Shown here: one piece after another, positions 53,173 through 59,888 of the stretch | Layout: the number at the start of each line of letters is the position of its first letter | How positions within the stretch are numbered: the first letter of the stretch is position 1 | Assembly: GCF_016786325.1 (NCBI RefSeq) | Contig: NZ_JADWYU010000084.1 | Coordinates: forward strand, 18,279-82,278 | Direction: 5' to 3' | DNA: 64,000 nt | Source of the DNA: Frankia nepalensis | GTDB lineage: Bacteria; Actinomycetota; Actinomycetes; Frankiales; Frankiaceae | Position numbers and translations under genes: made by a program | The notes under the pieces: model-generated | Seen by the model: the letters and a program-made list of their open reading frames with translations, nothing else | Told to the model about the DNA's origin: nothing | Database searches by the model: none

Positions 53173-53823
53173 GTGCGCGGCGGGGGCGCGCCGACAGGGC
53201 CATACGAGCTGGGATGGATGTGCGACGCCGGTATGAGCGCACCGCGGGACGACGACGGGGACGTGGCGGACGAGTTGTACAGAGGGTTCGGTAACTGTTT
53301 CCGGCGGACCCGCAAGGGGGTCGAGCTGCGGCTGCCCCGCTGGGAGGGGACGCTGCTCACCGAGCTCGTGCGGCTGATGGACGGAATGCTCGAGCCGCCG
53401 CCGGTGGACGACCCGCTGGAAGCCCTGGTCGGCCTGCGCGACACCGCCCCGCCGCCGCCGGACGACCCGGCGCTGGCCCGGCTCCTGCCCGACCCGTACC
53501 CGGAGGACCCGTTGGCCTCCGGGGACTTCCGCCGCCGCCGCACCGACGACGCGCTGGCGCACAAGCGGGCGGCGGCCCACCGGGTGCTCGCGACCGTGCC
53601 CGCCCCCGGCGAGGTGCTGCTCCTCGACGACGAAGCGGCGCAGGACTGGCTGACCACGCTCAACGACCTGCGGCTGGTCCTTGGCACCAGGCTCGGCATC
53701 ACCGACGAGCGCTACTTCGACGAGCTCGGCGAGCTGACGCCCGACGACGAGCGTCTCCCGGTCATCCAGATGTACGAGCTGCTCACGGCCCTGGTGGACA
53801 ACCTCATCCGCGCTCTCTACTGA
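53173..53823 (+). CDS. DUF2017 protein
   Basis: 216 residues (GTG 53173, 2 bp after the clpS stop), or about 196 if the ATG at 53233 is used. The DUF2017 features are the opening FRRTRKGVELRLPRWEGTLL, the FRRRRTDD block near the middle and the ending DERLPVIQMYELLTALVDNLIRAL. Genes of this actinobacterial family regularly follow clpS; the function is unknown. Confidence 0.9.
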   Translation: MRGGGAPTGPYELGWMCDAGMSAPRDDDGDVADELYRGFGNCFRRTRKGVELRLPRWEGTLLTELVRLMDGMLEPPPVDDPLEALVGLRDTAPPPPDDPALARLLPDPYPEDPLASGDFRRRRTDDALAHKRAAAHRVLATVPAPGEVLLLDDEAAQDWLTTLNDLRLVLGTRLGITDERYFDELGELTPDDERLPVIQMYELLTALVDNLIRALY

Positions 53824-53876
53824 CGCCCTCCACCGACCGGCACCTCGAAGGCCGGGCATCTCATACGGTGGTCGGC

Positions 53877-54281
53877 GTGCTGCGCATCGACCCTGCCCTC
53901 CACCAGGCGATCATCGACCATGCCCGGCGTGACCACCCGGACGAGGCATGCGGCGTGGTCGCCGGTCCCGCCGGCTCGGACAACCCGGTCCGTTTCATCG
54001 CGATGGAGAACGCGGAGCGGTCGCCGACCTTCTACCGGTTCGACTCGATGGAGCAGCTGAAGGTCTGGCGGGAGATGGACGACCGGGACGAGGAGCCTGT
54101 CGTGATCTATCACTCGCATACCGCGACCGAGGCTTACCCGTCGAGGACCGACATCTCCTACGCCTCCGAGCCCGGTGCGCACTATGTGCTGGTCTCCACC
54201 CGTGAGCCCGACGTGACCGAGTTCCGCTCGTTCCGGATCATCGACGGCGCGGTCACCGAGGAGCCGGTCGAGATCGGCTGA
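53877..54281 (+). CDS. mec: JAMM/MPN metalloprotease, Mec-type
   Basis: 134 residues from the GTG at 53877, which gives the family opening LRIDPALHQAIIDHARRDHPDEACG; GTG 53868 is the alternative. The JAMM zinc motif is complete: E23, H79-S-H81 (IYHSHTATEAYPS) and D92. In mycobacteria the homologue cleaves cysteine from the CysO-cysteine adduct. Here cysO and cysM follow after a leader-peptide region. Confidence 0.93.
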   Translation: MLRIDPALHQAIIDHARRDHPDEACGVVAGPAGSDNPVRFIAMENAERSPTFYRFDSMEQLKVWREMDDRDEEPVVIYHSHTATEAYPSRTDISYASEPGAHYVLVSTREPDVTEFRSFRIIDGAVTEEPVEIG

Positions 54282-54492
54282 GGGTGCCGTCGCCTCCGGC
54301 CAGCGGCCGTCTTCGGCGCGGGGTCACAGCGGTTGTGCTCGGAGCCGGTGTCACATCTGTGCAACGATGGTTGCTATGACCGCCCCCCGCCACCCGACGC
54401 GGCCCGGGGTTCCTTCCGGATCGGCGACAGGGTCCCTGCCGGATCGGCGTAGCCGATCTGGGAGGTCGGCGATCTGGAAGGTCCGCGCCGCG

Positions 54493-54615
54493 ATGGCCGA
54501 GGGCATCCCGGAGCTGCGCCTGTTCGCGCGCCTGCACGTCGACCTGCTCCGGGTCGCCAGCGCCCGCTGTCACGACGCGCGCTGTCACGACACCCGCTGT
54601 CACGACATCCGCTGA
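54493..54615 (+). CDS. Cysteine-codon leader peptide (putative attenuator)
   Basis: A 40-residue peptide whose middle, LFARLHVDLLRVASARC, matches the actinobacterial ARLHVDLxRxASAxC leader-peptide pattern found upstream of sulfur/cysteine genes. After the first Cys it carries a 5-residue repeat, R-C-H-D-x three times (C26, C31, C36), all with the TGT codon, then Arg-stop. GGAAGG lies 11 nt before the ATG; an in-frame start at 54367 also exists. It sits between mec and cysO, 282 bp before cysO, so ribosome stalling at Cys codons could control cysO-cysM. Confidence 0.75.
   Translation: MAEGIPELRLFARLHVDLLRVASARCHDARCHDTRCHDIR
54565..54609 (+). repeat. 15-bp in-frame repeat, 3 copies, one Cys codon each
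   Basis: CGCTGTCACGAC plus a variable codon (GCG, ACC, ATC) is repeated three times at 54565, 54580 and 54595. It triplicates the cysteine codon at the end of the leader peptide. Confidence 0.95.
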
Positions 54616-54749
54616 TCTTCTTCGCTGCCCGCGCGCCGTCGGGAAGCGCTCGCGGCGTGGCCGGCGTTGTAGCCGATGCGGCCCCCGGAGGCGCGGCCAT
54701 GCTCATGGACGCGCGCGCGGACGCTGTGAAGCCTGAAACACTGGAGACT

Positions 54750-54789
54750 GCTCGCGGGGCCGGCCAGCCCGACCGGCCCGGCCGCGAGC
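54750..54789 (+). promoter_or_regulatory. Hairpin between leader peptide and cysO
   Basis: GCTCGCGG (54750-54757) pairs with CCGCGAGC (54782-54789). The stem continues as GGCCGG/CCGGCC after a 3-nt bulge. It lies 135 bp behind the leader peptide and 109 bp before cysO, a position suited to an attenuator or anti-attenuator stem. The rest of 54616-54897 holds no gene. Confidence 0.5.
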
Positions 54790-54897
54790 ATGGACTTGGT
54801 CGAGACGAACACGTTTCGCGCCCGGATGCGCCGGGCGCGCCGCCGTCGCCCGCCGGGCGAAGGGCGCGACACGAAACCGAGGGAGACGAGGAGCACC

Positions 54898-55170
54898 ATG
54901 GCAGTCCAGGTCCGCGTGCCGACCATCCTGCGCAACTACACCGGCGGTTCGAAGGTCGTGGAGGGCGCGGGTGAGACCCTGGGCGCGCTGTTCGAGGACC
55001 TCGACACCCGCCACGCCGGGCTGCGCGGCCGCCTCGTCGCCGACGAGGGGCTGCACCGTTTCGTGAACGTCTACATCAACGACGAGGACGTCCGCTTCCT
55101 CGGTGGCCTCGACGCCAAGCTCTCCGACGGCGACAACGTGACTATTCTCCCCGCCGTCGCCGGCGGCTGA
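54898..55170 (+). CDS. cysO: CysO-type sulfur-carrier protein (MoaD/ThiS fold)
   Basis: 90 residues ending in the Gly-Gly that is thiocarboxylated (ILPAVAGG). The ubiquitin-like fold is evident in VRVPTILRNYTGGSKVVEG and FVNVYINDEDVRFLGGLDAKLSDGDNVTIL. In mycobacteria the thiocarboxylate donates sulfide to CysM. ATG 54898 has GAGGAG 5 nt upstream. It lies 23 bp before cysM. Confidence 0.95.
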   Translation: MAVQVRVPTILRNYTGGSKVVEGAGETLGALFEDLDTRHAGLRGRLVADEGLHRFVNVYINDEDVRFLGGLDAKLSDGDNVTILPAVAGG

Positions 55171-55187: not shown

Positions 55188-56167
<980 letters not shown>

Positions 56168-59807: not shown

Positions 59808-59888
59808 TGCGGGAGGGGGGACTTGAACCCCCACGCCCTAGGGCGGCAGATCCTAAGTCTGCTGCGTCTGCCATTCCGCCACTCCCGC
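59808..59888 (-). tRNA. tRNA-Leu (anticodon UAG)
   Basis: The minus-strand sequence folds as a complete tRNA. The acceptor is GCGGGAG/CTCCCGC and the anticodon stem GCAGA/TCTGC encloses loop CTTAGGA (anticodon TAG). It has a short class-II variable arm around GCCCTAGGGC and a T-arm GGGGG-TTCAAGT-CCCCC. The discriminator is A, and no CCA is encoded. It reads CUA (and other CUN by wobble). Confidence 0.95.

Follow-up and report, generated by a model that had tools for sequence, protein, structure and literature searches.

The window, a 64,000-nt stretch of the 10.7 Mb Frankia nepalensis genome (398 contigs), carries mec and, beyond a gap of roughly 600 bp, cysO followed by cysM, with clpS and an AosR-like DUF2017 gene also nearby (Table 1). 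The DUF2017 gene (53173-53823) stands directly before mec and matches AosR, an oxidative-stress regulator, below threshold (86.5 bits against a cut-off of 260). The gap holds a leader peptide gene that was first read from an ATG at 54493 to a TGA at 54613-54615, with the product MAEGIPELRLFARLHVDLLRVASARCHDARCHDTRCHDIR. An Rfam scan of 50-60 kb gives the leader no match up to an E-value of 10, and the sole match above the gathering score in this region is a tRNA at 59808-59888.

Table 1. Features of the mec-cysO-cysM locus (positions in the window)
Feature	Position	Strand	Basis
mec, Prok-JAB metalloprotease	53868..54281	+	domain match Prok-JAB
conserved promoter-like motif GTCACATCTGTGCAACGATGG	54350..54375	+	directly precedes leader ATG 54376; core kept in 8/8 congeners
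leader ORF, probable full extent, 79 aa	54376..54615	+	ATG kept in 8/8 congeners, open to stop
dispersed palindromic repeat of about 79 bp, inserted in frame in leader ORF	54405..54483	+	genome repeat matches
leader ORF, first-described extent, 40 aa	54493..54615	+	open reading frame
NF042934 motif ending in conserved terminal Cys	54517..54570	+	residues 9-26 of 40-aa peptide
three 15-bp tandem units, RCHDA RCHDT RCHDI	54565..54609	+	repeat analysis; 7/7 congeners have a single unit
Cys codon TGT at D+9, fixed position of NF042934 family	54568..54570	+	150/150 TGT; DNA pattern 40 TGT vs 0 TGC
intercistronic block AAGCCTGAAACACTGGAG	54729..54746	+	7/8 congeners share CCTG[AG]AACACTGGAG; G007 has a degenerate form
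GC-rich hairpin, no T run	54750..54789	+	folding; terminator scan
cysO, ThiS family	54898..55170	+	domain match; matches chain of solved pair 3dwg
cysM, cysteine synthase	55194..56141	+	PALP, cysKM matches; matches chain of solved pair 3dwg

The leader gene and its family

Against the NCBIfam model NF042934 ("putative leader peptide", cis_reg_atten), the leader scores 26.9 bits alone for a cut-off of 27 and passes the 27-bit cut-off when in-frame neighbouring residues are included, a borderline match. The leaders of this family and the window leader have in common the motif R-x-H-V-D-L-x-R-x-x-S-x-x-C in a short ORF before a sulfur gene, while the three spaced Cys units and the 79-bp repeat inside the ORF are the window's own. 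The motif Cys, nine residues after the Asp (D+9), lies near the C-terminus of the short ORF and is followed by 14 residues, as against 0-8 in 147 of 151 distinct leaders. The position upstream of the sulfur-metabolism genes cysO-cysM belongs to our reading of the family and stands outside the NF042934 model. The sequence-only reading was right to place a leader peptide before cysO: the ORF at 54493-54615, the match to a profile family and the sulfur context all agree with it.

Ten NF042934 matches are found in this genome at E ≤ 0.01, and the nearest called long ORFs downstream of them include rhodanese, sulfite/nitrite reductase, solute-binding proteins and ABC permeases. Leaders L039-L048 of the same genome precede called ORFs for rhodanese, binding proteins, ABC permeases, a ROK-family protein and a Trans_reg_C protein, and possibly form a cysteine-stall regulon. 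As regards cysO itself, the leader is present in all 8 genomes of the genus, the window genome included; that of G005 escapes the pattern but is picked up by the profile. In the window's taxonomic family, 28 of 30 cysO loci are readable (L030 and L035 gave no start, and L037 has only 71 nt upstream), and the pattern finds the leader in 7/7 of the genus and such a leader in 0/21 loci of other genera, where L022 and L026 gave unrelated matches. A pattern search of 80 named cysO loci finds it in nine, namely two Frankia records and all seven Streptomyces loci; in the remaining loci, from other Frankia, Micromonospora, Actinomadura and Glycomyces, it picks up none of this type.

The start of the leader is probably the ATG at 54376 rather than that at 54493, because the former is kept in 8/8 congeners (window genome included) and 7/7 relatives have GTG at 54493; we infer translation from ATG 54376 on this ground. 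A conserved stretch around TGTGCAACGATG precedes it and begins abruptly, in the 8 congeners, after a gap of variable length behind mec. A search of the promoter-like motif for a sigma-70 consensus found none. AACGAT at 54363-54368 ends 7 nt upstream of ATG 54376 and does not fit the hexamer TANNNT; a leaderless start is proposed at this ATG. Across the family, a TANNNT hexamer lies 5-8 nt before 75/433 in-frame starts versus 4/366 out-of-frame ones (Fisher P 5e-17), and an in-frame start so preceded is reached in 74/150 leaders. SD-like stretches precede 51/433 in-frame and 19/366 out-of-frame starts and, since 42/150 leaders carry an in-frame start with such a stretch, leaderless starts are not universal in the family. 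In the window, GGAAGG, brought in by the 79-bp repeat, ends 11 nt upstream of ATG 54493, so that a second start there is possible.

The sequence-only reading had suggested that the leader, lying inside the unit, might set Mec apart from CysO/CysM. What can be added is the promoter-like motif between mec and the leader, present in all 8 congeners, which could have this effect. The cysO leader also looks like a copied cassette, because a similar promoter and leader precede a sulfite/nitrite reductase gene elsewhere in the same genome (L008, 1401-1590); this second leader has a similar N-terminus and is 87% identical to the cysO leader over 89 nt.

The 79-bp repeat has 53 matches in its own genome, 13-68 in six congeners and none in G007, and it is missing at the leader site in 7/7 relatives. 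Partial and adjacent copies also occur elsewhere in the genome. The repeat consensus, written by hand, is stop-free in all six frames, and the window copy has one stop, in an unused frame. The D codon lies 78 nt farther from ATG 54376 than in G004, and the reading frame is therefore kept. Over 84 nt the palindrome has a predicted fold of -55.7 kcal/mol, and it might be an obstacle to translation from ATG 54376. Such a large palindrome in the ORF would suit a degenerating leader, in which the 79-bp element and the 15-bp repeat are marks of decay and cysO-cysM is expressed from another promoter; at a guess, the intercistronic block could be that second promoter. Frame, motif and TGT are nevertheless intact despite the net insertion of 78 nt, and we consider decay improbable.

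The triplicated unit

The three in-frame R-C-H-D-x repeats of 15 bp that the sequence-only reading had described, each adding a TGT Cys codon, are borne out, with unit borders at 54565-54579, 54580-54594 and 54595-54609. Their first 12 nt, CGCTGTCACGAC, are identical across the three units and the last codon alone varies (GCG, ACC, ATC); Tandem Repeats Finder reports a period of 15, 3.6 copies, 89% matches and a score of 80. The exact 12-mer occurs in the window at these three sites only. Allowing one mismatch raises the number of matches to 4, for 1.38 expected, a number that 5 of 100 shuffles also reach; the count of the 12-mer alone is weak, and the feature beyond chance is the tandem in-frame arrangement.

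In all 7 congeneric genomes the cysO leader has one Cys codon and no repeat: the peptides end in SA-x-C, followed by four codons and the stop, and three units are found in the window genome only among the 8 genomes of the genus. The suggestion that the repeat tunes sensitivity by copy number is not supported for a conserved trait, this absence from 7/7 congeners being what the sequence-only reading itself had named as refuting it; these congeners are, however, other species and not strains. In the relatives, the Cys-codon site (CGCTGT, AGCTGT or GGCTGT) lies 15 nt from the stop site (CGCTGA or CACTGA). Replication slippage between similar sequences at this distance could create a unit, and because the two sites are similar and 15 nt apart, it would give exactly such an in-frame one. 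The exact CGCTG pair is present in 3/7 relatives (G001, G002 and G003), the other relatives sharing at most 4 bases.

Could the tripled Cys codons be an adaptive gain in sensitivity or dynamic range? Each unit does hold one in-frame Cys codon within an identical 12-nt core, and further Cys codons past D+9 occur in 41/163 leader loci, the window leader included. Against such a gain stand the absence from all seven congeners, the Cys spacing 9-14-19, unique to the window leader among the 163 loci, the sufficiency of slippage given the flanking similarity and the fact that only the first Cys holds the conserved distance from the motif. We therefore give adaptation little credence; this genome is the only one in which we see the triplication, and the effect of the two extra Cys codons is uncertain.

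A fixed TGT codon at the presumed sensing position

The leaders read comprise 163 NF042934 loci: 53 of 56 rows from the 8 congeners, and 110 rows from a sample across the class (148 genomes, 97 with matches). The latter are 30 given loci and 80 fetched ones, mostly the best-scoring, with lower-scoring and unlisted rows outside the count. When the DNA between the second codon ahead of the Asp and the stop is compared, 151 of the 163 are distinct. The D+9 codon is TGT in 150/150 distinct leaders read with a Cys there, the one exception being L263, a match with the peptide end DLLRVSSAISLV and no Cys at D+9. These counts are not independent events, as related loci share ancestry, though the loci are diverse in family, downstream gene and peptide. 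The three further congener rows, the cysO leaders of G001, G003 and G006, also have TGT, as do the nine named cysO leaders (seven from Streptomyces and Frankia L145 and L148, which may duplicate genomes of two congeners). Other Cys codons of the same leader ORFs are 137 TGC and 29 TGT, with 52 TGC and 3 TGT at D+2. The called downstream ORFs have 283 TGC versus 14 TGT (95% TGC), an approximate background given automatic gene calls with wrong starts at some loci (e.g., L042 and L046).

Because the protein profile had picked the leader sample, a profile-free DNA pattern was run on 296 genomes of the class, which overlap largely with those of the profile search. With TGT it gives 40 matches in 38 genomes and with TGC none in the 296 genomes, in the subset of leaders sampled by fixing CGC as the next codon; the reversed control pattern is absent among the matches listed. 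The base after the D+9 TGT is C in 119 leaders, T in 22, A in 8 and G in 1 (n=150), whereas G follows 41% of 296 Cys codons in the downstream ORFs. The local accessibility of the UGU is 0.45, as against 0.40 at surrounding positions and 0.36 in a UGC version, a difference that is not striking. The use of TGT every time beside genes that favour TGC had been pointed out for the repeat; all three codons are indeed TGT, yet this is no peculiarity of the repeat, TGT being the rule of the family at D+9. The fixed UGU codon is the wider surprise, beyond the triplication. The literature searched, with passages of PMC1262725, PMC13236596, PMC8079986 and PMC8632094, gave nothing on a fixed UGU codon, most subscription papers being outside the reach of the search.

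It may well be, as a tentative proposal, that the leader family senses cysteine via one particular codon rather than via Cys codons at large: D+9 is locked as UGU, the next base is almost never G, and the other Cys codons of the ORFs are mostly UGC. The stall would then arise because the single tRNA-Cys reads UGU by wobble, or from an A-site event at UGU-Y, and the window strain would have copied the locked codon twice more. The single tRNA-Cys has a GCA anticodon. A rival account is nascent-chain arrest of the TnaC type, in which HVDLxRxxS would sit in the exit tunnel while the ribosomal centre holds the Cys or the codon for it, codon supply being secondary. Amino acids of the motif are conserved while third positions are freer up to the Cys (GAC/GAT 79/21% for the Asp codon), and the Cys stands at the same distance in 150/151 distinct leaders, a result favoured by the search profile itself, which ends at that Cys. 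Simple codon-counting leaders are not known to need such a peptide motif. Arrest by the nascent chain, which we regard as somewhat unlikely, leaves the always-TGT Cys codon unexplained.

RNA structure and a model for cysO control

Of the hairpin noted between leader and cysO, the presence in the fold holds (-30.9 kcal/mol for the 75-nt hairpin region), without a T run or a conserved fold. As a conserved attenuator it is rejected: the outer stem looks alike by eye in G004-G006, and the predicted folds differ between genomes. A scan of 54250-55000 finds 0 intrinsic terminators, and this region thus lacks the T-run terminator before the first gene that a trp-type transcription attenuator has. A Rho site was also sought by C-over-G bias and set aside, the peak at the leader stop occurring in G001 and G002 only and not being conserved. 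The intercistronic block is conserved in the genus amid otherwise divergent sequence; in G001-G003 it resembles what we take to be the SigR/SigH promoter (GGAAC-N18-CGTT).

Neither sequestration of the SD nor an antiterminator or U-tract terminator emerges as conserved from folding across the genus, sequestration being judged by partition-function folding, which alone cannot exclude it. The predicted openness of the cysO SD is 0.45-0.66 when the mRNA is free and shifts by at most 0.08 when the mRNA is masked as far as a ribosome placed on the first Cys codon (8/8 congeners). Masking to the stop codon lowers it to 0.29 in G004, and the footprint alone changes it by -0.18 in G004 and +0.14 in G006; predicted pairing partners of the Cys region also differ between genomes. 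In nine Streptomyces-type cysO loci (part of 17 aligned ones, with L228 and 7 named loci outside), leader masking raises predicted SD openness in 7/9, by 0.01-0.27, and lowers it in 2/9. Translation attenuation is possible in these mRNAs according to the folding models. In five Streptomyces-type cysO mRNAs (L140, L144, L230, L267 and L300), the predicted folds pair the first leader codons with the SD of cysO.

A further rival is a translation attenuation like that reported for mycobacteria, in which the leader would pair with the cysO ribosome-binding site and the UGU would be kept as a partner of ACA. Besides the 7/9 loci opened by masking, some members, e.g., L134, have ACAACAGGAG-like sites facing UGU runs, and the cysO sites read GACAGGAG in 14 of the 17 aligned loci. 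For 100 distinct leaders with a called SD and a spacing of 25-420 nt, cognate duplexes with the ribosome-binding site are slightly better than mismatched ones (permutation P 0.039). Yet pairing of the UGU is no more frequent in cognate (0.670) than in mismatched (0.673) duplexes, the footprint alone opens the SD in only 2/9 Streptomyces-type loci, and the SD is not sequestered in the model of the window mRNA. Pairing of this kind is quite unlikely to explain the locus and, by elimination through weak tests, UGU decoding or an A-site or nascent-chain event is the better account of the fixed codon.

Canestrari et al. 2020 reportedly described polycysteine leaderless short ORFs of mycobacteria. 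Polycysteine leaders are included in the NF042934 family; the window leader shares with those taken to be mycobacterial (RAVDLCRVAGCCCCCCSC) the profile, the D+9 TGT and, possibly, a leaderless start. One of the polycysteine leaders, L117, precedes a rhodanese gene (best solved relatives 3aax and 3hwi). Unlike the mycobacterial polycysteine attenuator, the window leader has no consecutive Cys run, its three Cys codons being spaced by five. Folding gave no SD pairing in the 8 congeners, the window mRNA among them. Cysteine genes of M. smegmatis are described as being under translation attenuation in PMC13236596. In PMC1262725, the leader peptides of cys operons in Mycobacterium, P. acnes and Bifidobacterium have no obvious terminators; Cys codons near the stop and the lack of a conserved terminator are common to them and the window leader, while theirs are runs of Cys codons. 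The uORFC-8-2 motif before cysS in Rhodobacterales, as given in PMC8632094, is likewise a Cys-codon uORF with presumed stalling, and has two tandem Cys codons, UGC dominating, and an intrinsic terminator.

Altogether, the window leader is a real leader of a known kind and a natural variant of it. It appears likely that a ribosome-stalling cysteine leader of the NF042934 family controls cysO-cysM from its own promoter, with the first Cys codon as the sensor and the other two as lineage-specific extras. The promoter between mec and cysO would drive a probably leaderless leader mRNA, on which the ribosome would make the conserved R-L-H-V-D-L-x-R-x-x-S-x-x-C stretch and pause at the D+9 UGU whenever charged tRNA-Cys runs short, and this pause would raise downstream gene expression. 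The Cys codon at 54568 would be the conserved sensor; the second and third, presumably slippage products of this lineage, may be neutral or mildly change sensitivity. Sensing of cysteine by a stalled ribosome is proposed from family membership and by analogy with published mycobacterial work. This cysteine leader reading draws on the NF042934 match, the TGT-keeping leader before cysO in 8/8 congeners, the sulfur-gene contexts, the cysO leaders of Streptomyces (7/7), the excess of TANNNT hexamers before in-frame starts and the invariance of the codon, and it is weakened by the lack of a folding link between leader and cysO, the lack of a terminator and an AACGAT that is not TANNNT.

The rule of the family is unusual for attenuators, in that all 150 members read with Cys at the presumed sensing position use one and the same synonymous codon for it, beside genes that use the same codon about 5% of the time. 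The contrast between UGU and UGC bears on whether cysteine sensing reads the codon or the amino acid only, and the triplicated version in the window is a natural comparison of one versus three such codons.
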